Source of the DNA: Floccifex porci
GTDB lineage: Bacteria; Bacillota_I; Bacilli_A; Erysipelotrichales; Erysipelotrichaceae
Assembly: GCF_009696175.1 (NCBI RefSeq)
Contig: NZ_VUMM01000018.1
Location: 1-38,493 of the forward strand
Reading direction: 5' to 3'
Length of the DNA stretch: 38,493 nucleotides
Below, in pieces: positions 4,987-37,403 of this stretch (its first letter is position 1; the number at the start of each line of letters is the position of its first letter). Under the pieces are notes generated by a model that was not told where the DNA came from, did not search any database, and saw only the letters and a program-made list of their open reading frames with translations. Both the position numbers and the translations under genes were made by a program.

Positions 4987-4998
4987 ATGTGCTTAAAT

Positions 4999-5027: not shown

Positions 5028-5050
5028 GGAAAAATTTATAAAATGTTTTT

Positions 5051-5521: not shown

Positions 5522-5532
5522 ACTTTAAAAAG

Positions 5533-5557
5533 TAGATTTTGATAAATCTAATTTTTT
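5533..5557 (+). terminator. Terminator of GNAT gene
   Basis: Stem TAGATTT/AAATCTA with a 4-nt loop and a run of six T. Confidence 0.75.
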
Positions 5558-5635
5558 CAATACTTTTACTTCTATTCAATCCTCTTTTTACAATATTTTG
5601 TTAATGTAGAGTTGACTTGATTAGGAGGATGTAAA

Positions 5636-7948
5636 ATGAAGAAAAAAGTTAAAATGAAGAAAAAAGTGTTTACAACTTTATTCGTGACAGGTTTGACTTT
5701 AACACAGGCTTTACCTGTAAGTGCTCAGGAGCCTGTACAGGAAGAATCTGTTGTTGATTCGCAGGAACAACCTGTCGGTGAATTACAGGAAGAAATAGAA
5801 GTAGAGTCACAGACAGTTGAATCTATGCCTATAGAAAATGAAATCCAATTGTTAAGCGACGAAGTATATCCAACTTCCATTACTTTATTATCGAGTGTTA
5901 AATCTTTTATGGTTCAGGGAGATACAGCTACTATTAAAGTCAATGGATATGCACCGTCTAATGTGACTGATAAAAATGTTATCTGGTCAAGTTCAGATAC
6001 AAATGTTGCTACTGTAAACTCGGAAGGGGTTATTACGGCTGTTGGTGCAGGGAATGTAACCATTACAGCTACCTGTGTTGGAAAGAATCCGGATATGACT
6101 TCACCTGCAACGGCAACCTTCTCATTCTATGTAAAAGGGATTGCAGATAATTATCAGTATAAAATCGATAATGGAACTATCACAATTGAAAAATATTTAG
6201 GAAGCGATACAAATATCGTTATTCCATCTACTATTAATGGAATGCCAGTAAAAAGTATTGGATCGTATGCCTTTGCCTTTAGCAACAATGCCAAATCCAT
6301 TACTTCTGTTACCATCCCTTATGGGGTTACTCAAATTTCAGATTATGCGTTTAATGCCTGTACAGCTTTAAGTAAGGTATCCATTCCATCGACTGTAAAA
6401 ACCATAGGAAAAAGAGCTTTCTGGTCTACCGCTTTAATCAGTGTAACCATTCCAAATGGAGTAATCAGTATTGGAAATGAAGCTTTTAGTAAATGTGCCA
6501 GCTTAACCAGTGTTTCCTTACCTGCTTCTTTAACTTCAGTAGGAGCCAATGCGTTTAATGGAACAAAACTGTCTTCATTAACTCTACCAGACAACATTTC
6601 TTATGTTGGAACCAATGCTTTTTCTGGCATTACTTTATATGCCAATCCTGAATCAACCACTTATAAGACATTGACTTCTAAAAAAATCGAAGTGAAAGTG
6701 AAATATCCAACTTCTATTTCCATCACAACAGACTCAAAAACAGTCACAGGAAAAAATAAAGAAATTGTACAGGGAAATACAGCGCAGTTCTATGTCAATT
6801 CTTATAGTTTTGAAAGTACTGTTCATGATGTAATCTGGTCAGTGGATAATGAAGAGATTGGAAGCATTGATTCAAATGGAGTGGTAACCATCAAAAAAGA
6901 AGGAACATTAAAAGTGATTGCTACATGTACAGGAAAAAATGAAGATATGACCTCTCCTGCACAGGCTGAATTTACTTTAACTTGTATAGGTGTATCTGGT
7001 TCTTTTCAATATAAGACAAAAGAAGATGGTACCATTTTAATTGATGAATATATTGGAACGGATAAAGACGTCCAGATTCCATCTACAATTGATGGAAAAC
7101 CGGTTACTGAAATATACAATGCTTTTTATGGAGATGAAAATATAGAGAGCGTCGTTATCCCAGAAGGGGTTACTGTTTTAGACAAAGAAGCCTTTGCGTT
7201 ATGTAAGAATTTATCAAAGGTAACTTTACCTTCTACTTTAAAAACCATTGGAGAAAGGGCTTTTGCCTATACAAATCTAAAAGAAGTTATCATCCCAGAA
7301 GGAGTGACTTCTATTGGAAGAAATGCTTTCAATAATTGTAAGCAAATGACAAATATTAGTTTGCCTTCTACCTTAAAAACAATCAATCCTTTAGCTTTTA
7401 CTTCTACAGGTTTGAAAGAAATTGTATTACCAGATCATATTACGTATATTGGAACGAATGCTTTAAAGGGAATTGATACGATTCTAGTAAAATTTGGTAC
7501 AGAAACCGAACAGACTTTAAAAGAAAACAACATTCCATATTCCATTCAATGGGTTTCTTTAAATTCGATTCCTGTCATTGAATGTAAAGATATTGTCCTA
7601 AAAGAAAAGGATTCATTTGATCCATTAAAAGATGTAAAGGCAATGGATGCAGAAGATGGAGATTTAACGGTTTCTATTGAAATAGTGGAGAATGATGTAG
7701 ATACTTCCAAAGTGGGAGAATACAAAGTGATCTACAAAGTAGTAGATTCAAATGGAGCCATCTGTACAAAAACAAGAAAAGTTATTGTTGAAAAGAAAGA
7801 TAACACAGAAAATACAAAAACAGAAACGAAAAAGAATACTAAAAAAGAAGTGAAAACGGGATTTATTTCTTCTTTCTTATTATATTTGTCTCTATTCCTT
7901 TCTTCGTTTACGTCCCTATTCATTATTAGAAGAAATAAATCAAAATAA
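5636..7948 (+). CDS. Surface protein: Big2 + BspA-type LRR_5 repeats + DUF5011, degenerate sortase signal
   Basis: 770 aa. Signal peptide to about residue 30, then two copies of one module: a Big_2 Ig-like domain (about 80-168 and 355-455) followed by BspA/LRR_5 leucine-rich repeats (about 172-345 and 460-635; repeated IPxGVTxIGxxAF and LPxTLKTI units). Next comes a DUF5011 Ig-like domain (about 648-723) and a Lys/Thr-rich spacer. The tail is VKTGF (739-743), a hydrophobic helix and RRNKSK, i.e. an LPXTG-like signal keeping only TG. Host or matrix binding is the usual assignment for such proteins; ligand unknown. AGGAGG sits 7 nt before the first ATG. The first 18 bases are nearly repeated, so a second ATG lies at 5654. 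Confidence 0.9.
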   Translation: MKKKVKMKKKVFTTLFVTGLTLTQALPVSAQEPVQEESVVDSQEQPVGELQEEIEVESQTVESMPIENEIQLLSDEVYPTSITLLSSVKSFMVQGDTATIKVNGYAPSNVTDKNVIWSSSDTNVATVNSEGVITAVGAGNVTITATCVGKNPDMTSPATATFSFYVKGIADNYQYKIDNGTITIEKYLGSDTNIVIPSTINGMPVKSIGSYAFAFSNNAKSITSVTIPYGVTQISDYAFNACTALSKVSIPSTVKTIGKRAFWSTALISVTIPNGVISIGNEAFSKCASLTSVSLPASLTSVGANAFNGTKLSSLTLPDNISYVGTNAFSGITLYANPESTTYKTLTSKKIEVKVKYPTSISITTDSKTVTGKNKEIVQGNTAQFYVNSYSFESTVHDVIWSVDNEEIGSIDSNGVVTIKKEGTLKVIATCTGKNEDMTSPAQAEFTLTCIGVSGSFQYKTKEDGTILIDEYIGTDKDVQIPSTIDGKPVTEIYNAFYGDENIESVVIPEGVTVLDKEAFALCKNLSKVTLPSTLKTIGERAFAYTNLKEVIIPEGVTSIGRNAFNNCKQMTNISLPSTLKTINPLAFTSTGLKEIVLPDHITYIGTNALKGIDTILVKFGTETEQTLKENNIPYSIQWVSLNSIPVIECKDIVLKEKDSFDPLKDVKAMDAEDGDLTVSIEIVENDVDTSKVGEYKVIYKVVDSNGAICTKTRKVIVEKKDNTENTKTETKKNTKKEVKTGFISSFLLYLSLFLSSFTSLFIIRRNKSK

Positions 7949-7967
7949 GGCTGAAAAGCCTTATTTT
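7942..7967. terminator. Bidirectional terminator between convergent genes
   Basis: An 11-bp perfect stem (AAAATAAGGCT/AGCCTTATTTT) with a GAAA-type loop. It overlaps both stop codons. T-runs on each strand make it usable from either side. Confidence 0.88.
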
Positions 7968-8980
7968 ATGTTTAATTTCTCTTTTAATAATGGAATAAAG
8001 AAACCCTGCTGAAGTAAACATTTTAAGTCTAAATCTAGATTTCTAAAGATAGATACATCAATGTCTTCATTTAATAAAGTAAATAGACATGTTTTTTTAT
8101 TTATATCTGGTATAGTTTCATTGATCTGATAAGGGATAGCACATCTTCTTTTCTTTTCTCTTAGTTTAGATATATCACAGTCAAATATATAAAAATAATA
8201 AGGTGTATGTTTCATCATATCTCGTATTTCATCTAAGCTGAAACAATCTAAAGATACATCTATAAAATCAATATTTAATTCTAATAGATCACATAATTGT
8301 TCCACTTCACGATCTTTAAACATATAAGGGTATTTATTTTCACATGTTTTAAAGAAAGTATCGACAATATCTATATTTTTAATGGTTTTATTTCCTTTAA
8401 AACAGAATAACTGTTTTACATCGGATTTCATTAATTCAACAACAGTATGAATCAATGTAGAATCTTTTTCTAAAATTGTATTTATGATTTCCTGTCTTTG
8501 TGCATATTTTTCAAAATGAGTGGTTAAGTAAGAAAATATATATTCCAGATCCTGTAAAACAGGTTCATGTTTTTTATAGATATTTTTAAATTCTGTATCA
8601 AAGATTTCATAATATGTATTGGTTGTATGATGTGTCTGGTATCCTAACTGAAGATATTTTTCATTGTATTCATGTAAAAAAGAAATGGATACATTATCAT
8701 CGTTAATAATAGATGCACAACATTTTAACTGTTCTTTACAATCCTGAACGATCTGATGATTTAATTCATTTTTTACAGAAGCAGCAATGATCAAAAAATA
8801 GTCTTTAATGTCTTCTTTTTCATAATGTTTATATATACGTTTTTCTTCTTCAATTTCATCAATAAAATTGGGAGAAAGATATTTTACATTTTCAAATTGT
8901 TTTCCCATTTCATAGGCTTTTTTTCCTCCACCTATGACCAGTATATTCTGATTTTCTAAATTTATATTCACTGTTTTCAT
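7961..8980 (-). CDS. Siroheme-synthase (precorrin-2 dehydrogenase)-like NAD(P)-binding protein with unknown C-terminal half
   Basis: 339 aa. Residues 1-110 look like the Rossmann domain of CysG/Met8/SirC: NINLENQNILVIGGGKKAYE at the dinucleotide loop, LIIAASV after strand 4, and IINDDN where family members have NVVDxP. The remaining 230 residues are Lys/Asp-rich and resemble nothing I recognise; they have no clear chelatase or methyltransferase motif. No other tetrapyrrole gene is in the window, so true siroheme activity is doubtful. It is monocistronic, divergent from ligA across a perfect palindrome. Confidence 0.6.
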   Translation of the reverse strand: MKTVNINLENQNILVIGGGKKAYEMGKQFENVKYLSPNFIDEIEEEKRIYKHYEKEDIKDYFLIIAASVKNELNHQIVQDCKEQLKCCASIINDDNVSISFLHEYNEKYLQLGYQTHHTTNTYYEIFDTEFKNIYKKHEPVLQDLEYIFSYLTTHFEKYAQRQEIINTILEKDSTLIHTVVELMKSDVKQLFCFKGNKTIKNIDIVDTFFKTCENKYPYMFKDREVEQLCDLLELNIDFIDVSLDCFSLDEIRDMMKHTPYYFYIFDCDISKLREKKRRCAIPYQINETIPDINKKTCLFTLLNEDIDVSIFRNLDLDLKCLLQQGFFIPLLKEKLNIK

Positions 8981-8994
8981 TTTATCACCTTGTT

Positions 8995-9023
8995 TATCAT
9001 ATCATAAAAATTATGATATGATA
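8995..9023. promoter_or_regulatory. Palindrome in divergent promoter region
   Basis: A perfect 12-bp inverted repeat TATCATATCATA / TATGATATGATA with a 5-nt centre, placed in the 65-bp gap between the two divergent start codons. It contains -10-like hexamers (TATGAT) on both strands. An operator shared by both genes or a symmetric promoter are both possible. Confidence 0.55.
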
Positions 9024-9045
9024 ATTGAAGTTATGGAGAAAAAAT

Positions 9046-11064
9046 ATGGCTAGAATTGATGATTTAAAAGCGTTAATTAAAAAATATGATGAACAATATT
9101 ATGAATGGGGACAATCGGAAATATCCGATGCACAATACGATCGTTTATATGATGAATATGTGGCTTTGGAAAAAGAATTTCCTGAATATGCTTTAATGGA
9201 GGATTCTCCTACAAGAACAGTAGGGGCGGGAAAAGAAGCTGGAAAAAGTACGGGGTTAGAAAAATTCAGACATAAATCCCCTTTATTAAGCATTGATCGT
9301 AAGGCAAAAGAAATTAGTGAACTGATGGATTTTTATATTAAATGTGGAAGTCCTCAGGTTATTGTAGAACCAAAACTGGATGGGATTACTTGTAATATAA
9401 ATTATGAGAATGGGAAATTTGTCAATGCGGCTACCAGAGGAAATGGATATATTGGAGATCTTATTACAGATAATTTTAAAGTGACACAGACAAAGTATCC
9501 CAAAGAACTAGAAGAAGGAGTGGAATTGGAAGTTCGAGGAGAAGCCATTATTCCGTTTGATTATTTTAAGAAACATTTAATGGAAGATTATTCCAATCCT
9601 AGAAATGCGGTCAGTGGAATCATGAGACAGATTGATGCCAAGGATGTAAAGGGAAAAGGTGTACAGGTTTTATTTTACGATGTTGGGGTTTCTTCCCTTC
9701 CTTTTTCAAATGACAGTGAATTTATAGACTATTTAAAATCACATGATTTTCAAAGTGTACCAGTACGGATTGCCGATAACTGGGAACAGTTAAAACAGAT
9801 TGTGGAGTCCAGTTTAGATGGGTATATTCAGCAGGTGGATGGATTTAATGTATTAATGGATGCGAAAAAAGAATATCCACAGGCAGTATGTGATGGTTTA
9901 GTCATTAAAGTAAACGATTTTGGTTTAAGAAATGAAATAGGGATGTCCATTAAAGGACCGAAATGGGCATTTGCGTATAAATTTAAACCATTACAGGAAG
10001 TCACTCGCATTGAAAAAGTCATCTGGCAGACTGGAAAATCCGGTCGTATTACTCCGGTCGCACAGTTTAAGGAAGTATCTTTAGGGGGTACAAAAATTAC
10101 CAGAGCAACGTTGAATAATATTGATTATATGAAACAGATGGATCTGCAGTGGAACGATGATATTGTCATTGAACGAAGCAACGATGTGATTCCTCGTGTG
10201 ATTGAAGTAAAGAAACACAATGAAGGACTGGATCTGGATGGTTTTGAAGAAAGCTTTCATCAGCCAGAATATTGTCCGGTGTGTCATGAAAAGATAAAAG
10301 TGCTTTATCCTTTACTATATTGTGTCAATCCTGCCTGTAAAGCGCAGATCAAAGGAAAAATTGTACATTATGCATCCAGGGATGCTTTAAACATTGTAGG
10401 CTTAGGGAAAGCAATAGTGGATGTATTATTTGAAGAAAATTTATTGAGCGATCTGCCTTCCATTTATCAATTAAAAGAATATCGAGAACAATTGGAAGCT
10501 CTTCCCAAATTTGGAAAGAAGAAAGTGGATAATTTATTAAATTCAATTGAAAATACAAAGAATCCAGAATTGTGGCAGTTTATTTATGGACTTTCCATTC
10601 CAGAAGTAGGAAAGAAAACAGCTAAAGATCTGGCACAAAGATATCATACTTTGGATGATTTTATGAATTGTACGATGCAGGAATTACTGGATATGGAAGA
10701 CATTGGTGAAATCATTGCACAGAATATTGTGGATTTTGTCCACAATCCACATGTATTAGAATGGATTCAGACATTAAAAAAACGGGGAGTCAAATGCAAA
10801 GATATTGAAATTCATAGTGAAGAATTAAAAGGAAAAACATTTGTGATTACCGGAACTTTAGAACATCCAAGAAAATATTATCAGGATATCATTGAGAAAA
10901 AAGGTGGAAAGGTTTCTTCTTCGGTTTCTAAAAAAACAACAGCGGTATTGATTGGTGTGGATGCAGGCTCAAAAGAGACAAAAGCCAGAGAACTGGTATC
11001 AAAGGGAGAATCCATTACTTTATTGACAAGTGAAGAAGAAATTTTGAAATATTTTCAAATGTAA
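9046..11064 (+). CDS. ligA: NAD-dependent DNA ligase
   Basis: 672 aa, the standard LigA length. It seals nicks in duplex DNA using NAD+ during replication and repair. The catalytic lysine is in EPKLDG (K110 from this start), within the adenylation domain. An OB fold, a Cys4 zinc finger (CPVC ... CVNPAC near residues 402-425), helix-hairpin-helix repeats (about 440-575) and a C-terminal BRCT domain (about 592-672) follow in the usual order. I chose ATG 9046 because GGAG lies about 7 nt upstream. An in-frame TTG at 9025 would add seven residues but falls next to the -10-like palindrome. It is followed by its own terminator. Confidence 0.97.
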   Translation: MARIDDLKALIKKYDEQYYEWGQSEISDAQYDRLYDEYVALEKEFPEYALMEDSPTRTVGAGKEAGKSTGLEKFRHKSPLLSIDRKAKEISELMDFYIKCGSPQVIVEPKLDGITCNINYENGKFVNAATRGNGYIGDLITDNFKVTQTKYPKELEEGVELEVRGEAIIPFDYFKKHLMEDYSNPRNAVSGIMRQIDAKDVKGKGVQVLFYDVGVSSLPFSNDSEFIDYLKSHDFQSVPVRIADNWEQLKQIVESSLDGYIQQVDGFNVLMDAKKEYPQAVCDGLVIKVNDFGLRNEIGMSIKGPKWAFAYKFKPLQEVTRIEKVIWQTGKSGRITPVAQFKEVSLGGTKITRATLNNIDYMKQMDLQWNDDIVIERSNDVIPRVIEVKKHNEGLDLDGFEESFHQPEYCPVCHEKIKVLYPLLYCVNPACKAQIKGKIVHYASRDALNIVGLGKAIVDVLFEENLLSDLPSIYQLKEYREQLEALPKFGKKKVDNLLNSIENTKNPELWQFIYGLSIPEVGKKTAKDLAQRYHTLDDFMNCTMQELLDMEDIGEIIAQNIVDFVHNPHVLEWIQTLKKRGVKCKDIEIHSEELKGKTFVITGTLEHPRKYYQDIIEKKGGKVSSSVSKKTTAVLIGVDAGSKETKARELVSKGESITLLTSEEEILKYFQM

Positions 11065-11070
11065 GGATTG

Positions 11071-11110
11071 ATCCTTTGGTTGTGTTTAGACAGAATCAAA
11101 GGATTTTTTA
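11071..11110 (+). terminator. Terminator of ligA
   Basis: Stem ATCCTTTG / CAAAGGAT (11071-11078, 11097-11104) with an 18-nt loop, then TTTTT. Confidence 0.75.
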
Positions 11111-11129
11111 TTTTCAATTGTTATGATAA

Positions 11130-11158
11130 TAGACTTTACAAGGGTTTTTATGTATAAT
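11130..11158 (+). promoter_or_regulatory. Likely promoter of rny
   Basis: TAGACT (11130-11135), 17-bp spacer, perfect TATAAT (11153-11158), 41 bp before the rny start. The -35 box matches consensus at 4 of 6 positions. Confidence 0.6.
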
Positions 11159-11199
11159 AAATAAGGTTTATACCGTGTACAAGATAGGAGGATTTTGAA

Positions 11200-12753
11200 A
11201 TGCAAAGTGGTGTAATCATCTTCTTGTCTTTGATAGCAGGTCTTGCCTTTGGGATTGTGATAATGTTTTTGGTTTCAAAAGCAGGATTAAATAAAGATCA
11301 GCAAAAAGCGGAAAAGATTTTGCGGGATGCGCAAATGGATGCCGATGCGAAAATTAAACAGGCTGTATTGGATGGTAAAACACAGGCGCATGAATTGCGT
11401 GTTGAAGCAGAAAAGGAAATTAAAGAGAAAAAACAGGAAGCAATGAATTTTGAAAATAAGTTGATTCGTAGAGAAGATAGCTTGAATTTCCGTGAAGAGG
11501 CTTTAATGCAGAAAGAGCGCCAGATGAATGATAAAATGCAGAAAGTTGCTGATAAACTGTCATCTTTAGACGCAAAAGAAAAGAAATTACAGGAACAGAT
11601 TGATCAACAGATCGTCGTTCTGGAAGGTGTGGCGAAAATGAGCAGCCAGGATGCCAAGAAGGAACTGTTTGCGGTTGTTGAAAAGAAAATGGAGCACGAG
11701 ACAATTGCTTATATCAAAGATAAAGAAGAGGAAGCAAAAGCCAGTGCAAAAGAAAAGGCACAGAATATCATAGCCTTAGCCATTGAAAGAATGGCACAGC
11801 AGGAAACACAGGAACGTACCGTAAGTGTTGTTTCCATTCCAAGTGAAGAAATGAAGGGACGTATTATTGGTCGAGAAGGTCGTAACATTCGTGCTTTTGA
11901 AACGGCAACGGGAGTGGAATTGAATATTGATGATACACCAGATGTGATCACCATTACCTGCTTTAATCCAGTTCGTCGTGAAGTGGCTCGATTAGCTTTG
12001 GAACATCTGATTCATGATGGAAGAATTCAGCCAGGTCGTATTGAAGAAGTGGTTAAAAAATACCAGACGGAAATCGATCAGGAAATTCAGAAAGCAGGAG
12101 AAGACGCCATTTTTAAACTGGGAATTGGAAGAATCGATCGCGATATCGTTCGTTTGATCGGAACGTTAAAATATCGTTATTCCTATGGACAGAATGCTTT
12201 ACAGCATTCAATGGAAGTGGCTTATATTTCAGGGGCTTTAGCTGCTGAACTGGGCTTAAATCAGCAATTGGCAAAACGTGCTGGATTGCTTCATGATATT
12301 GGAAAAGCCTTAAACATTGAACAGGATGGTTCACATGTGGAACTGGGTTATAAATTCTGTAAAAAACATGGAGAAAAAGAAATTGTCTTAAATGCGATTC
12401 AATCTCACCATGGTGATGTAGAAGCAAAATTTTTGACAAGTCATCTGGTTATTGCAGCCGATACTATTTCCGCTGCTCGTCCAGGAGCTCGTAAAGAAAG
12501 TGCGCAGGCATATATTGATCGTCTGGAAAATCTTGAAAAGATTGCCAATGAACATGAAGGTGTACAAAGCGCATTTGCAATCCAGGCAGGTCGTGAAATT
12601 CGTGTATTAGTTCATCCAGATCAGGTAGATGATTTTAATTGTACAAAAATTGCACGTGAAATTCGTGAAAGAATTGAAGCGGAATTAACGTATCCAGGAC
12701 AGATAAAAGTAAATGTGATTCGTGAAGTTCGCGCTCAGGAAATCGCAAAATAA
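11200..12753 (+). CDS. rny: Ribonuclease Y
   Basis: 517 aa membrane-anchored endoribonuclease that starts mRNA turnover in many Firmicutes. It shows an N-terminal membrane helix (about 5-25), a long charged coiled coil (about 30-200), a KH domain with GRIIGREGRNIRAFE (220-234) and an HD domain with LLHDIGKA (H365, D366). Length and domain order match the family. AGGAGG lies 8-9 nt before ATG. It is a single-gene unit between a good -10 and a 15-bp terminator stem. Confidence 0.97.
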   Translation: MQSGVIIFLSLIAGLAFGIVIMFLVSKAGLNKDQQKAEKILRDAQMDADAKIKQAVLDGKTQAHELRVEAEKEIKEKKQEAMNFENKLIRREDSLNFREEALMQKERQMNDKMQKVADKLSSLDAKEKKLQEQIDQQIVVLEGVAKMSSQDAKKELFAVVEKKMEHETIAYIKDKEEEAKASAKEKAQNIIALAIERMAQQETQERTVSVVSIPSEEMKGRIIGREGRNIRAFETATGVELNIDDTPDVITITCFNPVRREVARLALEHLIHDGRIQPGRIEEVVKKYQTEIDQEIQKAGEDAIFKLGIGRIDRDIVRLIGTLKYRYSYGQNALQHSMEVAYISGALAAELGLNQQLAKRAGLLHDIGKALNIEQDGSHVELGYKFCKKHGEKEIVLNAIQSHHGDVEAKFLTSHLVIAADTISAARPGARKESAQAYIDRLENLEKIANEHEGVQSAFAIQAGREIRVLVHPDQVDDFNCTKIAREIRERIEAELTYPGQIKVNVIREVRAQEIAK

Positions 12754-24879: not shown

Positions 24880-25104
24880 GGCAAAGGCTATGAAGAGGAC
24901 GAGTAACTGAATACGGATGCATAGAGAGATTCTGGAAGGTGTAAAGAATCGTGAGGGTTCAGCGAATAAAAACTTGGAGCTGTATGTAATTCCTGCATTA
25001 AAGGAAGCACTGTTAGTTGACAGTGACAGAGGTCTTTTAAAGTGATTTAAAAGATAAATTAGGGTGGTAACACGGCATTCGTCCCTATGGATGGATGCCT
25101 TTTT
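24880..25104 (+). promoter_or_regulatory. T-box leader (lysine-specific) controlling lysS
   Basis: A tRNA-sensing leader RNA. The T-box AGGGTGGTAACACGG (25061-25075) begins the antiterminator AGGG...CCCT (25061-25086). The competing terminator is GGCATTCGTCC / GGATGGATGCC (25074-25084, 25089-25099) plus T-run. Stem I landmarks are visible (AGAGAG near 24922, GGAAGGTG near 24936). The specifier position before ACTTGGAG reads AAA (24969-24971), a Lys codon, consistent with the downstream gene. Uncharged tRNA-Lys should favour read-through. Confidence 0.93.
25074..25104 (+). terminator. Regulated terminator of the lysS T-box
   Basis: An 11-bp stem with two G-U pairs, 4-nt loop, six T. Its left arm overlaps the antiterminator. 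Confidence 0.9.
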
Positions 25105-28426: not shown

Positions 28427-28585
28427 ATGAAATTCAATTTTTTACCGCAGATTGCGGGAGTACAGACTGCTTCGGGACAGCAAAAAGGCCGGATAATAGG
28501 AATGTGGCTATCAGAATGTGTACCTTTTGACAATTATTTCCTCAAATACATAATGGCCTCAGAGCGGGTGGAGATGGAACCATAA
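28427..28585 (+). CDS. 52-aa hypothetical protein
   Basis: AAGGAG lies 7 nt before the ATG. The product has IAGVQTASGQQKGRIIG followed by MWLSECVPFDNYF. The second motif recurs in the next short frame (LWLSEGTPFDYCS). Unrecognised. Base composition rises in GC from about here, in line with the operon that follows. It may be a real peptide or a leftover of a longer gene. The 134 bp before it (28293-28426) hold no gene I can support. Confidence 0.35.
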   Translation: MKFNFLPQIAGVQTASGQQKGRIIGMWLSECVPFDNYFLKYIMASERVEMEP

Positions 28586-28606
28586 ATCCAAGCAGTTTGC
28601 AGCAAA

Positions 28607-28750
28607 ATGCTTGATTCTCTTGATTTATTTCCGCTTTTCGTGTATAACGATAATGAATTTTTGTGGCTATCAGAAGGTACACCTTTTGATTATTGTTCAG
28701 ACTATTATGCACCGCCATATCAATATTTCTTGCTCTTCAAAATGTTATAG
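28607..28750 (+). CDS. 47-aa hypothetical peptide sharing WLSExxPFD motif
   Basis: Frame from ATG 28607 to TAG 28750 ending YQYFLLFKML. It contains LWLSEGTPFDY, matching MWLSECVPFDN in the preceding ORF at both protein and DNA level. No good SD. Probably a fragment of the same ancestral sequence; reported for the repeat rather than as a sure gene. Confidence 0.25.
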   Translation: MLDSLDLFPLFVYNDNEFLWLSEGTPFDYCSDYYAPPYQYFLLFKML

Positions 28751-28803
28751 ATTAACAGCATAAAGAAGCAAATTTTACCAAAAACCAAAAAAGGGGGATA
28801 AGG

Positions 28804-29589
28804 ATGAACAAAATAATTTTAATATTCGGGGTTTTATTTATCGTGATTGCCGGTTGCTTAATTGGAACTAGTCTATCCCGTTTAGAGGATGAAGATGTCA
28901 TTGTGATGGAACAGCCGTCCAACACAGAATTTTCTGAGGTTTCTACTGATGCTGTGGAAACCTCGGAAGACGATGCGATGTTTGTTGCCGTTGATGCTTT
29001 AAAATCACCCAATAATGAGATTCAGCAATATATTTCTTCACAGGTACAAATTGACGAGACGCATATTCGCATGACTGCTGATAAAATGGGAGAGGCATAT
29101 CTCTCCGGAAAAGCAGAATCCGTATCTGCTTTTCGTTACGGAAGATTTTCTTTTTGTATCAATACTATGAAAGGTGTAGGATTGTTTCCTGCAATTTGGA
29201 TGTTGCCATCCGATATCAATTCCGATTATCCGGAAGTAGATATTTATGAACTGATTGGGAATGAACCCAACATATTTTATGGAGTGCTACATTACATGGA
29301 GAAAAGTGAAAAATCAAGAGATTTTTTTAGACATACCTTTCCAGTTGATAAAATACCGGAAACATACCGTATTACATTTGAATGGACGCAGGAAGAAATG
29401 GTTTGGTATCTGGGAGATGAAATAATCTATACAATTCAGGATAATGTTCCGGATGAACCTTTATATTTCATTTTTAATCTTGCAGTGGGAGGAAACTGGC
29501 CCGGAAGTCCGGATGCTGATACTGAATTTCCGGCAATGTTTGAGGTGGAGATTTTGGAATTTATGCCGCAGGAAATTTATTCGAGATGA
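28804..29589 (+). CDS. GH16-family beta-glucanase lipoprotein
   Basis: 261 aa. N-terminal signal with lipobox IAGC (C18), so probably tethered outside the membrane. An acidic linker is followed by a GH16 jelly-roll (about 80-258). The active-site signature is EVDIYE (E144 nucleophile, D146, E149 acid/base). FPAIWMLP and FIFNLAVGGNWPG are also standard GH16 blocks. Family members cleave beta-1,3, beta-1,3-1,4 or related glucans. First gene of a seven-gene operon ending in a glycan synthase, so it most likely trims or releases the product. SD AGGGGGATAAGG precedes ATG. Confidence 0.9.
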   Translation: MNKIILIFGVLFIVIAGCLIGTSLSRLEDEDVIVMEQPSNTEFSEVSTDAVETSEDDAMFVAVDALKSPNNEIQQYISSQVQIDETHIRMTADKMGEAYLSGKAESVSAFRYGRFSFCINTMKGVGLFPAIWMLPSDINSDYPEVDIYELIGNEPNIFYGVLHYMEKSEKSRDFFRHTFPVDKIPETYRITFEWTQEEMVWYLGDEIIYTIQDNVPDEPLYFIFNLAVGGNWPGSPDADTEFPAMFEVEILEFMPQEIYSR

Positions 29590-29604
29590 GGAGGAGAGAA
29601 TATT

Positions 29605-30294
29605 GTGCAGGTAAAAAGAACCGAGAAAAAATTTATATTAAACAGTCAAGAGCGTGTTCTTGTACAAAAGAGAATTGGCGCAGTCATGCCGAAAGACCTC
29701 CATTGCGTTTCGGCAGACGGCTATGAGATCCGATCGCTTTATTTTGATACCTTTTCTGATCGAGCTTGCGCTGAAAAAGAAGAAGGCTTGCAAGAGCATG
29801 AAAAAATTCGGGCAAGGATTTACGGAACGAATGACCATATCATAAAGTTGGAAAGCAAAAGGAAGAATGGAGAATTCCAAACAAAAGACAGTATGTTGAT
29901 TGATCGAAAAACATTGGAAGATTTATGTGTCGGAAATTACAACGTCCTTTTGCAAAGTAATGATCCGCTGGCCATGTATTTTTACATAAAACTTTCTCAG
30001 GGGATGGCACCGAAAGTGATTATACAATACAAAAGAGTGTCCTACTGTGCTCCCGGCAATCATACGAGGATTACATTTGACACCGATATACGAGCTACTG
30101 AGAGCAATTTTGATTTGTTTCAAGAGAAACTGCTGACTTATCCAATTCTTTCGTCAGATCAGACGATTATGGAAGTAAAATATAATAACTTCCTTTTTGG
30201 ATATATAAAAGAGGCGTTAGCCGGAGTAAAAAAATCCACCACATCTTTCAGTAAATATTTTAACGGAAGAATGTTTTATAAATACATGATATAG
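29605..30294 (+). CDS. VTC-domain protein (polyphosphate-polymerase-like)
   Basis: 229 aa. The CYTH-like tunnel fold of VTC proteins is indicated by regularly spaced basic and acidic strands: RTEKKFIL at the N-terminus, IRSLYFDT (about 46-53), EKIRARIYG (about 66-74), IKLESKRKNGEFQTKDS (about 79-95) and IMEVKYNNFL near the C-terminus. Yeast Vtc4 makes polyphosphate from ATP; bacterial relatives beside CotH and DUF4956 genes are uncharacterised as far as I know. Start GTG 29605 follows GAGGAGAG; 15 bp after the GH16 gene. Confidence 0.85.
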   Translation: MQVKRTEKKFILNSQERVLVQKRIGAVMPKDLHCVSADGYEIRSLYFDTFSDRACAEKEEGLQEHEKIRARIYGTNDHIIKLESKRKNGEFQTKDSMLIDRKTLEDLCVGNYNVLLQSNDPLAMYFYIKLSQGMAPKVIIQYKRVSYCAPGNHTRITFDTDIRATESNFDLFQEKLLTYPILSSDQTIMEVKYNNFLFGYIKEALAGVKKSTTSFSKYFNGRMFYKYMI

Positions 30295-30307
30295 GGAGAG
30301 AGTAGAA

Positions 30308-30970
30308 ATGAATGAATTTATTGTTGAAAATCTTTTAGCGGGAAGTACTGTGTCTTTTTTTGATGTTGCCATTAAGCTTTTTATGGCACTTGTGATTGGG
30401 GTTACTATCTATATTGCATACTATTTTACATCAAGCAAGGTTTCCTATAACAGTAACTTTAACCTTTCACTGGTTGCTATGGCGATCATCACTACAGCGA
30501 TTATGGCAGTTATCACGAATAATATTGCTTTATCTTTGGGTATGGTTGGTGCGTTGTCAATCATTCGTTTTCGTACAGCTATCAAAGACCCACGTGATGC
30601 CATGTTCATCTTTTGGAGTATTATGGTTGGCATCTGCTGCGGAGTTGCACAGTATGTGATTGCGATTGCCACCACGATGATTCTCTTTTTATTCTTTATT
30701 CTTGCAAAAGCTGTCAAAGAGGAAAGAAGATATATTTTAATTATTCGCTGTGAAGTTGATGCAATGGAATATGTAAAATCGGTTACCTACCAATATTTCA
30801 AAAACAGCCGAATCTCAGTTCAAAATACAACCAGTGAATATGCAGAATTTATCTATGAATTGAAAAAAATTGAAAAGACCAAAACAGATGATTTTCTCAA
30901 AAAATTGTATGCTTGCAAAAAAATTGAGTGTGCAAACTTTGTTTTACAGGAAGATAAAGCAAGTGTATAA
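30308..30970 (+). CDS. DUF4956 membrane protein
   Basis: 220 aa with four membrane helices (about 20-38, 53-72, 76-90, 96-135) and a cytosolic C-terminal alpha/beta domain (about 140-215). The family signature GMVGALSIIRFRTAIKDPRD lies after helix 3. DUF4956 proteins repeatedly occur next to VTC-domain and CotH genes, as here. Function unknown; a membrane partner of the VTC protein is a fair guess. SD GGGAGAG, 13 bp after the previous stop. Confidence 0.88.
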   Translation: MNEFIVENLLAGSTVSFFDVAIKLFMALVIGVTIYIAYYFTSSKVSYNSNFNLSLVAMAIITTAIMAVITNNIALSLGMVGALSIIRFRTAIKDPRDAMFIFWSIMVGICCGVAQYVIAIATTMILFLFFILAKAVKEERRYILIIRCEVDAMEYVKSVTYQYFKNSRISVQNTTSEYAEFIYELKKIEKTKTDDFLKKLYACKKIECANFVLQEDKASV

Positions 30971-30985
30971 GGGAGAGATTCTGTT

Positions 30986-32356
30986 ATGAGAGGAAAATGG
31001 CTTATGCTTGGTGTGGTGCTTACTTCATGTGTGATAGTTGCGCTCCTGCCCCTTTATCCTAAAGTAGATACCTTGGTTGTTCATCAGCATCAAAGTTTCC
31101 CTGTGGAAAATAAAGAAATCATCGGTTTTGATGACAACGGTGTTCTGACCTCCCATCTGCCGCTGATTGTTTTAAAAGCGGATGGCAATGTGATTCCGGG
31201 TGCAGATAGGCCTACCGATCAGGAATTATACTGTGAATTTGCTGTGATTGACAATACCAATCACTTAAACCGTTCAGACGATGCCCCAACGCAAATCGGC
31301 AGAATGGCGATTAACGTTCGTGGAAATTCTTCACGTTATTTTCCCAAAAAACAATATGCAATCCGAACGGTAGATGATGACGGCATTCCGCAGGAAACAA
31401 CTTTTTTCGGTATGCCGGCGGAAACCACTTGGGTACTAAATGGAAGCTATATAGACTATTCCCAAATTCGTAACTACATGATGTATAATATTTCTTCTGA
31501 AATTATGGATTATGCACCTCAATGCCGACTTTGCGAGGTGTTTCTGACAAATGTAGACGGTGAGTTGGAATATCAGGGGCTGTATACCATGATAGAAAAA
31601 CCAAAGGTGTCGAAGGAACGATTGGACTTGACACCCTACAATCCGAAATATACGGAAACCTCTTTTGTTGTGCAGCTGAATAAACGGATTGATGATGCAA
31701 GGATCGATCATCTGAAACCGGATGATGTTGATGTGTATTCTGCCAATTTGGAATATCCTGATGTGGAAAAGATTACGGATTCCTCATTGCAATATATACA
31801 AAAAGAGATACTCCAATTTGAAAAAACACTTTATGATGCGGAGTATTCCGATAATTGGGAAAAAGTGAATCAGTGCATCGATTTAGACAGCTTTGTAGAT
31901 TATTATATTATCAATGAATTTTTTCAAAACTATGATGCCGGAAGACGTTCTACCTATCTTTATAAAAATGTCGGAGGCAAATTTTGTATGGGACCAGTAT
32001 GGGATTTTGACAGTGCATTCAATAATTTTACAGGAATGGAAATTTCTCCGTATATATTAGATATGCAATCTACATTTTATTACTTCTACCTTTGCCACGA
32101 TGCTGAATTTGTTGAACGGTGCAATGAACGCTACGAAGAACTTCGCAAGACGTTTTTATCGGAAGAATATCTGCTTAAATATATAGACGAGAGCAGTATG
32201 TACTTAGGCAGCGCAGTGATTAGAAATTGTGATAAATGGTATGATGGAGATTATTCTCTATATTATGGTGATATAGAAAAGATGAAAACATTCGTTATAG
32301 AAAGAGGCAAATGGATGGATGAACATTTTAAAGAATATATAGCGATTGTAAGGTAA
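30986..32356 (+). CDS. CotH-family kinase, membrane anchored
   Basis: 456 aa. N-terminal membrane anchor (about 5-24), then the CotH domain. Visible blocks include INVRGNSSRYFPKKQYAIR (about 110-128), the hallmark GPVWDFDSAFN (about 335-345), and a catalytic-loop-like segment IINEFFQNYDAGRRSTYLYKN. Spore-coat CotH is an atypical protein kinase; non-spore homologues sit in polysaccharide loci. The protein is predicted to be outside the membrane, which makes ATP supply a puzzle for a kinase. SD GGGAGAG; 15 bp after DUF4956. Confidence 0.88.
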   Translation: MRGKWLMLGVVLTSCVIVALLPLYPKVDTLVVHQHQSFPVENKEIIGFDDNGVLTSHLPLIVLKADGNVIPGADRPTDQELYCEFAVIDNTNHLNRSDDAPTQIGRMAINVRGNSSRYFPKKQYAIRTVDDDGIPQETTFFGMPAETTWVLNGSYIDYSQIRNYMMYNISSEIMDYAPQCRLCEVFLTNVDGELEYQGLYTMIEKPKVSKERLDLTPYNPKYTETSFVVQLNKRIDDARIDHLKPDDVDVYSANLEYPDVEKITDSSLQYIQKEILQFEKTLYDAEYSDNWEKVNQCIDLDSFVDYYIINEFFQNYDAGRRSTYLYKNVGGKFCMGPVWDFDSAFNNFTGMEISPYILDMQSTFYYFYLCHDAEFVERCNERYEELRKTFLSEEYLLKYIDESSMYLGSAVIRNCDKWYDGDYSLYYGDIEKMKTFVIERGKWMDEHFKEYIAIVR

Positions 32357-32362
32357 GCGAAG

Positions 32363-34510
32363 ATGAAGAACATGAAAAAAGGATTTACAATCAGCGTCAT
32401 TACAGCTGTTTTGTGTATTATTTGTATATGCTTGATATTTCATTGTTTTGATGGAAATAAAAGTGAAAAAGATAATATATTCAGAACCAATCAGAAAAAA
32501 ATAGAAATTCTGCAAGATGGAAGCTGGACGGATTTTGAGATAAAAGGCGTCAATATGGGAACCGGTTATCCTGGATTGTTTCCAAATGAATTCGGTATCA
32601 GTGAGGAAACCTATGCTCGATGGTTCAACCTGATCGGGGAAATGAATGCCAATACGATCCGGGTTTATAAAATACAATCGCCATGGTTTTATAAAGCCTT
32701 TGCCCAATATAATGAAACTCATGAAAATAAAATTTATCTCGTTCAAGGTGTAGATTTTAGTGAGGATTTGATGTTTTCGGAAGAAAATTTGCTGAATCCG
32801 AAGCAGAAAAACAAAGTCTTTCAAGAAACAAAAAAGACAGTTGATGCATTACATGGGGAAAACATAACGTTTGATACAGACACAGGGAAAATGTGTTACT
32901 ATAGTAATGATGTTTCCGACTACGTATTAGGATATGTTTTAGGCGTGGAATGGGACGAAATGTTTGTAGATTATGTATGTCGCTTTAATGAAGGGATTGC
33001 ACCTTATCAAGGAGCCTATATATCCAGTAGGCAGGAGGCAAATGCCGTCGAGATTTTCTTCTCTCAGTGGGGAGATTATCTTTTAAAATATGAAGATGAA
33101 ACTTACGGAACCCAGAAACTTCTCTCCTTTGCCAACTGGCCGGAAACAGATCCACTGGTAAATGAGGTATCCCCCAAACAATCAGTTGCATCAGCTACAG
33201 AAAATACAGAAGCCTTTATTGACCTTGAAAATCTACAACTTTCCGATAAGGTGAAGAGTGGGATGTTCGCTTCTTATAATGTTTATCCCTACTTTCCTGC
33301 CAGCCTTCAGTATGGAAAATATACGGAGTATATTGATGACGAAGGTAATCGAAATCCCTATCGGAAATATCTGATGGAGCTTGTTGATCATCATTCATGT
33401 CCGGTTGTTATTACCGAATACGGAGTTCCTGCTTCCAGAAGCCCAGCATATAAAGATGTTTGGAGAAATTTATCGCAGGGTGGAAATAACGAAACCGAAC
33501 AAGGTATTGCCTTGCTGGAGATGTATGAGGATATTCAGAAAGCGGGCTGCGCTGGAGGGATGGTATTCACATGGCAGGACGAATGGTTTAAGCGTTCATG
33601 GAATGAAAAAAGTTTGTCCAATCCGGATGGCAGAGCAAGCTGGAGTAATGCACAGAGTATAGAGCAGTTTTACGGATTGCTTGCATTTGAGCCGGGAGAT
33701 GGTAAGACTGAAAACTATCCGGATGGAAAAATTTCAGAATGGTCGAAAGAAGATGTTGTATTAGAAAATAATGATACGAAACTCAGTATGAAATCGGATG
33801 AAAAATATATTTATTTTATGGTGCAAGGGTTATCTGATATTAAAAGTGGCAATTCTATTAATCTTGCACTAGATGTTCTGCCAAACGCAGGAACAACCTA
33901 TACAAAAAACTTAGACTTTGCCATTCCAGTGGATTTTTTGATTCAAATCAATGCAGAAAAAGGCAGTAAGCTATTAGTTCATGACGATTCGGATTTGGCT
34001 GTTTATTCGATTGCAATCAAAAACAAAAGTGCGGCAGTTACCGATATTTATAAAAAAGCTGAGGAATTGATGCTGCCGTTGAAAAATAATACTCATACAT
34101 TTCATGTTGTTTCCAGAGCAAGTGGCAGTGTAAATGACTTCCTTTTGAATGAAAAGCCTCTTGAAAATGTTGGGATGTTAAAGCATGGGAACGCTAATCC
34201 GAACAGTGAGAATTATGATTCCAACGCAGATTACTGCATCAACGGTGATATCGTAGAGGTTAGAATCCCGTGGTCGCTTCTGAATTTTTATGACCCTTCT
34301 AAATGTATGGTAATTGATGATTATCACAAAAACGATTTTAATATCAAGGGTTTGAAAATCGAGGAGATTTATGCGGCTGCCTACTATGACAATCAGGAAA
34401 GTGTGACTGATTTCGGTACATATAAATTAAAAGGCTGGAAAAAACCGCAGTTTCATGAACGGTTAAAGAAATCATACTATATGCTTCAAAAAGCGTTTGG
34501 AGATGACTGA
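32363..34510 (+). CDS. Putative clan-A-like glycoside hydrolase with C-terminal beta domain
   Basis: 715 aa. One N-terminal membrane helix (about 8-28). Residues 55-440 look like a TIM-barrel hydrolase: EIKGVNMGTGYPG start, NANTIRVY on an early strand, LGVEWDE (E196) as possible acid/base, VVITEYG (E352) as possible nucleophile, and FTWQDEW on the last strand. Residues about 460-710 resemble a carbohydrate-binding beta-sandwich (LSMKSDEKYIYFMV). Family not certain (GH5/GH2-like clan A by pattern). In the operon it would act on the exported glycan, perhaps as a transglycosidase. Gap to CotH 6 bp. Confidence 0.68.
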   Translation: MKNMKKGFTISVITAVLCIICICLIFHCFDGNKSEKDNIFRTNQKKIEILQDGSWTDFEIKGVNMGTGYPGLFPNEFGISEETYARWFNLIGEMNANTIRVYKIQSPWFYKAFAQYNETHENKIYLVQGVDFSEDLMFSEENLLNPKQKNKVFQETKKTVDALHGENITFDTDTGKMCYYSNDVSDYVLGYVLGVEWDEMFVDYVCRFNEGIAPYQGAYISSRQEANAVEIFFSQWGDYLLKYEDETYGTQKLLSFANWPETDPLVNEVSPKQSVASATENTEAFIDLENLQLSDKVKSGMFASYNVYPYFPASLQYGKYTEYIDDEGNRNPYRKYLMELVDHHSCPVVITEYGVPASRSPAYKDVWRNLSQGGNNETEQGIALLEMYEDIQKAGCAGGMVFTWQDEWFKRSWNEKSLSNPDGRASWSNAQSIEQFYGLLAFEPGDGKTENYPDGKISEWSKEDVVLENNDTKLSMKSDEKYIYFMVQGLSDIKSGNSINLALDVLPNAGTTYTKNLDFAIPVDFLIQINAEKGSKLLVHDDSDLAVYSIAIKNKSAAVTDIYKKAEELMLPLKNNTHTFHVVSRASGSVNDFLLNEKPLENVGMLKHGNANPNSENYDSNADYCINGDIVEVRIPWSLLNFYDPSKCMVIDDYHKNDFNIKGLKIEEIYAAAYYDNQESVTDFGTYKLKGWKKPQFHERLKKSYYMLQKAFGDD

Positions 34511-34511
34511 T

Positions 34512-35036
34512 ATGGTGATTAATAATTTTTATATGGTTATATTGTATACTCTGTGTGGATATAGTTTACTTTGTTTATGTGTTAAATTGCTTTTGGATAG
34601 GAATAGAGAAAAAAGGACAGAGAAAAAGGAAAAAATAATTTGTGATTTTTTCCTTTTTCGTTCCAAAAAAGAACCTGCAGAAGCATCCCTCATTATGAGG
34701 CTAGCACAGGACGATTTCCTGTTCGCTTATATCTGTGAATGTTACATAAAACTCAGTCCGCAATATACATTGCATAAACAACAAAAAATGTCAAAATATA
34801 TGCAGTCTCTTATGGAAAATAAAATTAACTCTCTGGTAAAAGAGGATGTGCAGACACGTTGCTTGATTCTGAGATACCTGTTTCAAATGGGAATTCATTC
34901 GGACACAATTAACCAGTTCGTCAATGGATGCAGGAAGCAATCTAAGCTGGAACAGATATGGGTAAAAGCAATTGGATTAAGCGAAGACAACGTTTCCGAA
35001 GAGATTCCTGTAAAGGCTGTGTGTAAGGCGGGATAA
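34512..35036 (+). CDS. Small membrane-anchored operon protein, unknown
   Basis: 174 aa. One N-terminal membrane helix (about 5-25), a basic stretch, then a soluble alpha-helical domain (about 55-165) rich in short helices (MRLAQDDFLFAYICECYIK, then QTRCLILRYLFQMG), somewhat repeat-like. I do not recognise a family. It sits between the hydrolase and the synthase, so it may be an accessory subunit of the synthase. ATG 34512 is chosen because GGAG is 9 nt upstream; ATG 34503 has no spacing. Confidence 0.65.
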   Translation: MVINNFYMVILYTLCGYSLLCLCVKLLLDRNREKRTEKKEKIICDFFLFRSKKEPAEASLIMRLAQDDFLFAYICECYIKLSPQYTLHKQQKMSKYMQSLMENKINSLVKEDVQTRCLILRYLFQMGIHSDTINQFVNGCRKQSKLEQIWVKAIGLSEDNVSEEIPVKAVCKAG

Positions 35037-35040
35037 AAAG

Positions 35041-36429
35041 ATGATGATGATTTATATGATACGTGTTTTATTTGTCTTGTTTTTTGTATATACAGTAATC
35101 TATCTTTTCCAAATGGGAATCAGTCTCTGTATCTCAATTTATCGCCTTGAAAAATATAAGAAAAATAAAACGCTTAATCGAAAACTATTTCCCATCGCAT
35201 TTACCAAACGGATTCCGGTTAGCGTTATTATTCCCGCATACAACGAGGCGGCTTGTATAACAGAAACAATCGAAGCTTTATTTGAGGAAGATTATCTGAA
35301 TCTGGAAATTATTGTAGTAGATGATGGCTCAAATGATAACACCGAATCTCTTGTAGTAAAGAGATTCGGATTGATAGAAGAACCTGTTATGTCTGAATCT
35401 GAATTGAAGACAAAACCGATTCTTCGTCAATATCGAAAAGTATTTGATAAAAAAACGCTTGTTCTTATACATAAGGAAAACGGTGGAAAATCAGATGCGC
35501 TTAACTGCGGACTGAATATTTGTCATAGCCCATACTGCGTTATGCTAGATGCTGATACAAAAGTTCAACGAGGCTCCATCCGCATAATGATGAGTTGCTT
35601 TTTGATGAATCCCAAAACCATTGTTTGTGCAGGTGCTGTTGGCAGTGAAAATTTGAAAAATTATCCAAAACTTCCTTTTTTGAAGAAAGCACTGGTTGTT
35701 TTCCAAATATTAGAATATTATCGGACATTTTATATGCAAAGAATAATGTTCGATCATATCAATGCGAATATTATTGTCTCCGGTGCGTTTGCCATGTTTG
35801 ATACTGATTTAGTGAAACGGGTTGGTGGCTACCAAGTAAATACAATTGGAGAGGACATGGAACTGACCATGCGTCTCCATGCGTTTTGTGCTTCACAGGG
35901 AAAAGAATATCACATCGCATATGTTCCGGAAGCAAAGTGCATGACGCAGCTGCCGTTTACATATAAAGACTACTATCATCAAAGGCGGCGTTGGCATATC
36001 GGGCTGCTGCAAAGTTTGAAATTTCATAAATATATGCTTGGAAATAAAAATTATGGATGGGCTGGAATCACATCCGGTACATTTTTCATTTTGTATGAAC
36101 TTCTTGCACCGTTTTTGGAAATCATTGGGGTGGTTACTTTAATCGCAGCCAATTTACTGGATATTTTGAATCTTCAATTCACCATACAGGCAGCTATCCT
36201 ATATACGTTGATTGTTATATGGATACAGGTAATTCTTGTAAGTGCTGTTAATCGGTATAAAGTGGAACCGATTAACGGCAAACAGCGATGGATTTTGTTT
36301 CTGATTTCTATATTTGAGATAGTATTTTTTCATCCGCTCAATATTGTAATAAAAATAATAGCGACAGCTATGAACTATTGGCACAGAAAAAGCTGGGAAC
36401 ATATTCAGCGTATTGAAACGAACCGGTAA
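35041..36429 (+). CDS. Processive family-2 glycosyltransferase (beta-glycan synthase)
   Basis: 462 aa inner-membrane synthase. Membrane helix at about 5-30, then GT-A domain: SVIIPAYNEA (61-70), IVVDDGS (D94/D95), NGGKSDALNCG (147-157), MLDADTKVQ (D170, D172), GED (270-272) and QRRRW (314-318). Three membrane helices follow (about 345-372, 383-402, 416-440). The D, DxD, (T/G)ED, QxxRW set marks a processive enzyme that makes and extrudes a beta-linked polymer (BcsA, PgaC, HasA, mixed-linkage glucan synthases). The GH16 in the operon argues for a glucan rather than poly-GlcNAc. No PilZ domain seen. Three ATGs in a row leave the exact start open. Confidence 0.9.
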   Translation: MMMIYMIRVLFVLFFVYTVIYLFQMGISLCISIYRLEKYKKNKTLNRKLFPIAFTKRIPVSVIIPAYNEAACITETIEALFEEDYLNLEIIVVDDGSNDNTESLVVKRFGLIEEPVMSESELKTKPILRQYRKVFDKKTLVLIHKENGGKSDALNCGLNICHSPYCVMLDADTKVQRGSIRIMMSCFLMNPKTIVCAGAVGSENLKNYPKLPFLKKALVVFQILEYYRTFYMQRIMFDHINANIIVSGAFAMFDTDLVKRVGGYQVNTIGEDMELTMRLHAFCASQGKEYHIAYVPEAKCMTQLPFTYKDYYHQRRRWHIGLLQSLKFHKYMLGNKNYGWAGITSGTFFILYELLAPFLEIIGVVTLIAANLLDILNLQFTIQAAILYTLIVIWIQVILVSAVNRYKVEPINGKQRWILFLISIFEIVFFHPLNIVIKIIATAMNYWHRKSWEHIQRIETNR

Positions 36430-36620
36430 AGACTTTTTGATTCTTTATCACATCCGCTCAGAGATTTCGAAGATGAGCTAAATAAAATAGCTATAAAAAA
36501 TCCATCAGATTTCATTTTTCCTATTAAGATGAAGTCTTATGGATTGTTTTATTTTTGGAGAATGTATGAGCCGTTTCATCGATTTTATAGATATAAATTT
36601 GCGGGAGAAATACACCTTAA
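36430..36620 (+). other. Gene-free stretch after the synthase; open frame without recognisable product
   Basis: The synthase frame stays open after its stop up to about 36725 (LFDSLSHPLRDFEDELNKI at first), but it has no SD, no good start and then runs out of frame across the hsdS remnant. I see no clear intrinsic terminator for the polysaccharide operon here. Confidence 0.4.
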
Positions 36621-37403
36621 CGAATCTCGTCCCAAGAAGAAATTTTCAGACATTCATCAGGAAGTATTGTACGTGGAATACGCTCTAAGGAACTTATTGA
36701 AATTGAAATTAAATTTCCTGAATTAGAAAAACAAAAAATAATTAGCAAAGAATTGTTATCTTTAGAAAAAATAATAAGATTTAGATATCAAGAATTTAAC
36801 ACGTTGGGCGAACTAGTCAAAGCACGATTTGTCGAGATGTTTGGAAATTCAAAAGAATGTGTTAGACTAGGGGATTATTGTGAAGTACATGCAAGAATAG
36901 GATGGCAAGCTTTAACAAAATCAGAACACTTACAAAGTGGAGAATATATGTTAATCACTGGTAGTGATTTTTTGGATGGAAAAATAAACTATAATACTTG
37001 TGTCTAAGTAACTAAAGAAAGATATGAAATAGATTCTCATATTATTTTGAAAAATGATGATGTTTTGATTACAAAAGATGGTTCAATTGGAAAAGGGGCA
37101 ATTGTTGAGAAACTTCCAAAACCAGCAACATTAATTGGAGGTATCTTTGTTGTTCGTCCTGATAAAAGATTTAATAAAGAATATATATCAAATGTATTTA
37201 AAGGCTCTATATTTGCTGATTTTGTAAATTCATCTAAAACAGGGACAACTATAAAACATTTAAATCAAAAGCATTTAGTTGAATTTACAATTCCTGTTCC
37301 TGAAATGAAACTTCAGAATGAGTTTGCTGAATTTGTAAAATAAGTCGATAAATCTTTGTTTATTATGGTATCTTTCGCAATACGTCTTATTGAAAAACTA
37401 TAA
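36621..37403 (+). pseudogene. Type I restriction specificity subunit (hsdS) remnant
   Basis: One reading frame carries HsdS hallmarks: HSSGSIVRGIRSKEL (end of target domain 1), IKFPELEKQ, the helical spacer ELVKARFVEMFGN, then a second target domain with DVLITKDGSIGKGAIVEK and FTIPVPEMKLQNEFAEFVK. It lacks an N-terminus and is broken by two in-frame TAA codons, at 37005-37007 and 37341-37343. The second stands exactly where FVKQVDKS normally has CAA for Gln, so a single C-to-T change explains it. No hsdM or hsdR is in the window. Confidence 0.85.

Follow-up and report, generated by a model that had tools for sequence, protein, structure and literature searches.

NELoc-2 of C. perfringens is a disease-associated locus on a chromosomal island with a resolvase, for which the printed table lists, in order, SigI, a 348-amino-acid (aa) protein, a VTC protein, a 226-aa membrane protein, the resolvase, a second VTC protein, a 222-aa membrane protein, CotH (497 aa), a 685-aa protein, a HEAT protein (377 aa), and a GT2 (466 aa), the ∼225-aa proteins being read by the authors as tubulin/FtsZ (Lepp et al., 2010; PMC2879425). 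In the VTC complex of yeast, the polymerase Vtc4 sits on a basic membrane channel and is inactivated by R264A/R266A/E426N (PMC9911596). Here we describe a seven-gene operon of Floccifex porci, at positions 28804–36429 on the plus strand of contig NZ_VUMM01000018.1 (positions 1 to 38,493; this whole stretch of 38,493 nucleotides (nt) is called the window), which is very probably an exopolysaccharide operon of the NELoc-2 type.

The open reading frame (ORF) listing of the window contains seven ORFs in one orientation at this place, as had been reported in a first-pass annotation made from the sequence alone. Its range of 1–15 bp for all gaps needs correction, as the spacings from gene 1 to gene 7 are 15, 13, 15, 6, −14, and 4 nt, with genes 5 and 6 overlapping by 14 nt and the other gaps spanning 4–15 nt. 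Purine-rich, ribosome-binding-like sites precede most of the starts; the VTC gene starts with GTG and the 179-aa gene with TTG. Pfam named five of the seven genes, in agreement with the earlier domain names: a laminarinase-like GH16 lipoprotein (28804–29589; PF00722, 58 bits, cut-off 22; lipobox IAGC), VTC, with a cytosolic polyphosphate-polymerase-type domain (29605–30294; PF09359, 124 bits, cut-off 23; active-site residues kept), a DUF4956 membrane protein (30308–30970; PF16316, 48.6 bits, cut-off 31), a CotH kinase with an N-terminal membrane anchor (30986–32356; PF08757, 198 bits, cut-off 24), and a processive-type GT2 polysaccharide synthase (35041–36429; PF00535, 99 bits, cut-off 23). 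The Pfam scan matched no family in gene 5 (715 aa) or gene 6 (179 aa). Gene 5 (32363–34510) encodes a membrane-anchored exoprotein with a probable clan GH-A barrel and a C-terminal domain, for which the earlier name, TIM-barrel hydrolase, is likely rather than proven; gene 6 (34497–35036) encodes an N-terminal membrane segment followed by a helical, probably cytosolic part. The seven genes are not a chance grouping: copies 94–96% identical exist in two other genera, and the order recurs in four further loci.

The whole operon with its upstream region (28439–36638) is a mobile block that was recently passed between gut bacteria of different genera. By blastn, it matches positions 3411–11598 of a Fusibacillus kribbianus sequence (L022) at 94.3% nucleotide identity over 8240 columns, and a contig of a Frisingicoccus metagenome-assembled genome (L021) at 96.2% identity across that contig’s entire 7.7 kb. 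It is because the Fusibacillus block is so similar, although the lysyl-tRNA synthetase of that genome is only 57% identical to that of the window (55% in the Frisingicoccus genome), that we consider the block mobile. A serine recombinase and a MobQ relaxase border the Fusibacillus copy at one end, with a large serine recombinase at the opposite end, and the left neighbor of the block in the window is a relaxase-like ORF. The GT2 was absent from all four genomes of the same genus (0/4), and the G + C content at third codon positions is 0.35 in the operon versus 0.26 for ten other genes of the window, none of which exceeds 0.30.

To place the operon among its relatives, 392 genomes of the phylum were surveyed for VTC, and the surroundings of almost every match, to a maximum of 20 kb, were searched with profiles grown from the window proteins. 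The order VTC, DUF4956, CotH, barrel of ∼700 aa, HEAT, and GT2 was kept in L062, L097, L098, and a Planococcus plasmid, at ∼30–35% protein identity to the window. Among operons of this type, GH16 was recognized in the window and its two near-copies and in no others. The counterpart of gene 6 in L062, L097, and L098 is a membrane-anchored HEAT-repeat protein of 358–363 aa; the window has five of the six genes of the type in order, with gene 6 in place without HEAT similarity. Shorter versions occur without VTC-DUF4956-CotH, specifically two barrel genes, HEAT, and GT2 in Paenibacillus, barrel-HEAT-GT2 in Deinococcus, and HEAT-GT2 pairs in Bacteroides, Halosolutus, Legionella, and Mesorhizobium, those of the last two adjoining a YaiO-type outer-membrane protein. 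Because all these have the core without the trio, HEAT-GT2 looks like a widespread core, the barrel like a frequent partner, and VTC-DUF4956-CotH like an added module. Even without linkage, the barrel and GT2 families tend to share genomes, with the GT2 in 10 of 11 barrel genomes (p 9e-14, kinship not accounted for). Enzymes of cyclic di-GMP metabolism lie just 5′ of some of these operons (GGDEF in L062, GGDEF-EAL near L097). In three Gram-negative loci (L192, L195, L196), the GT2 adjoins an outer-membrane barrel of the YaiO family, and two of these loci also have an annotated HEAT protein; this suggests another export system of the synthase-dependent kind. On the Pseudobutyrivibrio plasmid pNP95 (L191), CotH-VTC-DUF4956 belongs to a larger polysaccharide cluster that also encodes pyruvyl transferases and acyltransferases.

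The synthase motifs named in the first-pass annotation are all present in the GT2, as D, D170-A-D172, GED (270–272), and QRRRW (314–318). Phylogenetic analysis placed it in a 21-row clade (support 99/98) of HEAT-partnered GT2s and GT2s of 950 aa, and, within the HEAT-partnered clade, in a sub-clade of Bacillota operons (98/96). E. coli BcsA, a CelA-like protein, and a GT2 from S. meliloti pSymB were far away (100/100), and the PgaC proteins of E. coli and Bacillota formed a clade of their own, so that the GT2 did not group with poly-GlcNAc synthases. The tree was built without RiGT2, hyaluronan synthase, or a confirmed BgsA, and its long branches (NodC, YaiP, Legionella) make the deeper joins unsure. 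In the same clade, the GT2s of L149 and L161–L174 are ∼950 aa long and carry an additional N-terminal half without an assignment, and the gene 5′ of that in L149 encodes a fusion of an ODP beta-lactamase, GGDEF, and a response regulator.

Two specific products were weighed as the polymer of the GT2. The first-pass annotation had taken the GT2 for a mixed-linkage glucan synthase whose product, a surface beta-1,3/1,4-glucan, would be trimmed by the GH16 of the same operon; its broader idea of a surface polysaccharide operon with a phosphate-handling module is supported as one operon, but the glucan part is not. The neighbors of GH16 are indeed laminarinases and beta-1,3(4)-glucanases, with EglC (1,3-1,4-beta-glycanase) as its best NCBIfam model, far below the cut-off; yet the GT2 stands apart from the BcsA/CelA types and the pSymB GT2, scores 44 bits against the CelA cut-off of 699, and belongs to an operon type in which GH16 is not constant, and an archaeal relative adjoins glmS, suggesting amino sugars there. 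We therefore dropped the glucan synthase as the leading reading, on the tree and the NCBIfam scores, and consider it quite improbable. A PNAG- or chitin-like amino-sugar polymer is possible, although we would sooner bet against it: PgaC_IcaA is the best NCBIfam model of the GT2 and matches all eight members scanned, and the NELoc-2 table names a chitin synthase as the best match of its GT2, but the window GT2 reaches 118.5 bits where the PgaC_IcaA cut-off is 422.3, and the window operon has no deacetylase. On that score and the separate PgaC clade, we rejected membership among the PNAG synthases (PgaC/IcaA) themselves.

The GH16 protein carries the reported EVDIYE motif (E144-V-D146-I-Y-E149), and its closest PDB relatives are laminarinases (ULam111, E 3.5e-19). 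Lipoproteins without a family match stand in the place of GH16 in L097 (10391–11182) and L098 (8920–9696), and carry EVDIEF, which resembles the GH16 active site; hhalign showed no homology to GH16 for these two or for the first gene of L152. For gene 5, profile comparison pointed weakly to a catalytic domain of GH2 type (9fz9, E 0.0039), and the family alignment placed an acid/base-type E196 followed by W and a nucleophile-type E352. Gene 6 stands, by synteny, where relatives have the HEAT-repeat protein; its low-confidence model is helical, and Foldseek returned only insignificant helical matches (E >0.2).

VTC and DUF4956 are near-obligate partners. Each was found in 73 of the 392 genomes, and 71 genomes had both (p 4e-73, kinship not accounted for). 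The two VTC-only genomes contained one match at a contig end and one fragment, and the two DUF4956-only genomes had matches with E near 8e-4; both families were found in the same three control genomes. The genes are adjacent in 80 of 82 loci, with VTC at a contig end in the remaining two. This two-way dependence was not found in the literature searched, and it gives DUF4956 a testable job. The VTC alignment profile matched yeast Vtc4 (3g3q) in the catalytic domain (E 1.4e-17), and twelve residues were invariant in 83 proteins (K67, R69, R71, E83, K85, K87, K94, R144, R155, D159, E190, and K192). By alignment, R69/R71 correspond to R264/R266 of Vtc4, and E190 to E426 by position only, beyond the printed alignment. 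In 80 DUF4956 proteins, R87 was conserved in 99% and R89 in 100%, along with an acidic residue at 97; the family bears a weak likeness to MgtC (19.7 bits, below the cut-off). From the pairing and these residues, it is an even call whether VTC-DUF4956 makes and exports polyphosphate. A profile scan of viral contigs returned one DUF4956 relative and no barrel. In two loci, PelG lies directly 5′ of CotH, and in the one scanned the module is preceded by PelF and followed by DUF4832, in line with the arrangement published by Whitfield et al. (2020); Pfam found no pelF or pelG in the window operon, and the genome has no PelG.

CotH occurs near the VTC-DUF4956 pair in 35 loci. The profile of the family matched the CotH structure 5jd9 (E 3.3e-32), with D317 and D340 invariant in 36 proteins and spaced by 23 residues as in that structure; in CotH, D228Q yields a dead enzyme. 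An N-terminal hydrophobic segment is present in 34 of the 35 CotH proteins near VTC, from which we predict that the protein is membrane-anchored and outside the cell. The question raised in the first-pass annotation, of how a cytosolic VTC and an extracellular CotH could serve one system, was thus apt. B. subtilis, where CotH acts within the mother cell on the spore coat, is on the control list for CotH and not on that for VTC.

The reading we prefer has four steps, of which the first three taken together have slightly less than an even chance of being right. The GT2 would polymerize a sugar nucleotide in the cytosol and export the chain across the membrane, the product of gene 6, itself membrane-anchored, standing in for the HEAT partner; on the outer side, binding, trimming, or release of the chain would fall to the barrel protein and the GH16 lipoprotein; and VTC would make polyphosphate from ATP, which DUF4956 would pass across the membrane via R87/R89, as Vtc4 and its channel do in the yeast vacuole. 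In the fourth and weakest step, extracellular CotH may phosphorylate matrix proteins or the polymer itself, for which the exported polyphosphate would be phosphate source or substrate. We doubt, in particular, that VTC-DUF4956 is a two-protein polyphosphate synthase-exporter of bacteria and archaea whose exported polyphosphate is the phosphate donor by which a secreted CotH would phosphorylate exopolysaccharide or matrix proteins outside the cell, where there would be no ATP, and consider this distinctly unlikely. In favor of such a donor role are the absence of CotH from all 16 relatives of the window that lack VTC, its presence near VTC in 13 of 25 that have it, and the case of B. subtilis given above.

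Several observations weigh against this four-step reading. The barrel of L062 lacks the second catalytic Glu and that of Planococcus lacks both; because of these losses, the barrel in some operons probably binds without cutting, and it need not be a hydrolase. Neither HMMER nor hhalign gave a HEAT match for gene 6. The structure model of DUF4956 was poor (pLDDT 54, pTM 0.29), and the protein had no match in the PDB. CotH is an ATP-using kinase, and we know of no polyphosphate-dependent member. Finally, many VTC-DUF4956 pairs occur without CotH, and CotH cannot be the sole use of the module because 22 loci have, in its place, a member of a protein cluster of Cthe_2159-type carbohydrate-binding lipoproteins.

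Those 22 loci, and others with neither CotH nor such a lipoprotein, also fit a different account, in which the polysaccharide operon is correctly identified but polyphosphate is an anionic, cation-binding matrix or wall polymer and not a donor, while CotH separately phosphorylates matrix proteins with ATP or is a binding protein. This account is conceivable but rather unlikely; it sits poorly with the scarcity of ATP outside the cell and with the distribution of CotH in the window’s family, where CotH lies near VTC in 13 of 25 genomes that have VTC and is absent from all 16 that lack it (p 3e-4, again leaving kinship aside). The 22 loci fall within L053–L132, and in one of them, L074, a GGDEF protein, a GT2, and a BcsB-like protein come farther along.

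The upstream context of the pair bears on a regulatory account. In eight loci (L095, L100, L101, L111, L120, L124, L127, and L091), VTC lies behind genes for a sigma factor of the SigI type and an anti-sigma factor similar to RsgI, resembling the head of the published NELoc-2. RsgI proteins sense polysaccharide outside the cell, and VTC-DUF4956-CotH might accordingly be a sensing or regulatory unit that controls the synthase by a phosphorylated or phosphate-bearing signal, without bulk polyphosphate; regulation by CotH phosphorylation was proposed for Pel (Whitfield et al., 2020; PMC7112168). However, every one of the 83 VTC proteins retains the full polymerase active-site set, more than a sensor needs, and SigI/RsgI may only switch the genes on, which leaves this account improbable.

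Around the operon, a promoter-like site (TTGACA-16-CATAAT; 28527–28554, plus strand; 11 of 12 matches) lies 250 nt 5′ of the first gene and is a candidate only, because such sites are no commoner in the region than in shuffled sequence. Rfam detected no riboswitch within the operon or just 5′ of it. Elsewhere in the window, a T-box leader at 24881–25089 (92.9 bits, cut-off 93) lies directly 5′ of the lysyl-tRNA synthetase gene at 25127, and two short ORFs 3′ of the operon (36753–37343) look, on reading, like fragments of a specificity subunit from a type I restriction system.

Two published clusters were rejected as matches, specifically the clostridial ccs operon, whose paper mentions no CotH, VTC, or DUF, and a zetaproteobacterial stalk cluster, which has CotH without VTC or DUF4956. 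The window CotH shares its family and the spacing of its Asp pair with the spore-coat kinase CotH of B. subtilis (PMC7821199), but has a membrane segment at its N terminus and is encoded in a polysaccharide operon with no spore-coat genes near. Like the mixed-linkage glucan synthase RiGT2 of Romboutsia ilealis (PMC10374906), the GT2 is a Gram-positive processive enzyme with D, D, D, and QxxRW and no BcsB partner, whereas RiGT2 was modeled on BcsA, from whose type the window GT2 stands apart in the tree. VTC shares with the yeast complex (PMC9911596) the active-site residues of the polymerase and a membrane partner with key basic residues; unlike the yeast system, which fills the vacuole, it has no SPX domain, and no resemblance to the Vtc1-type channel was detected in DUF4956, whose pore is hypothetical.

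At the level of gene clusters, the first-pass annotation was partly right in calling the combination undescribed, but the module and the operon each have a precedent in print, so the window operon is neither unique nor wholly undescribed. In Gram-positive Pel clusters, cotH, VTC, and DUF4956 are published as accessories beside the synthase, with DUF4832 adjoining (Whitfield et al., 2020; PMC7112168), whereas the window has no pel gene and a GT2 instead of the GT4 synthase PelF. VTC, DUF4956, and secreted CotH, which are widespread and little studied, thus form a portable module on at least two polysaccharide machines (HEAT-GT2 and Pel), which opens to direct test the question of how a kinase can phosphorylate where ATP is lacking, outside the cell. 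The position, length, and membrane location given in the published table lead us to infer that the ∼225-aa proteins of NELoc-2 are DUF4956; the order given there, VTC, membrane protein of ∼225 aa, CotH, 685-aa protein, HEAT place, and GT2, is then that of the window. NELoc-2 differs, according to the same table, in starting with SigI and the 348-aa gene and in having a second pair of VTC and membrane protein, whereas the window starts with GH16 and has the 179-aa protein in the HEAT place. The type was thus printed in 2010 without being recognized, in that table, as a polysaccharide operon, and the window operon gives NELoc-2 a readable meaning (Lepp et al., 2010; PMC2879425).

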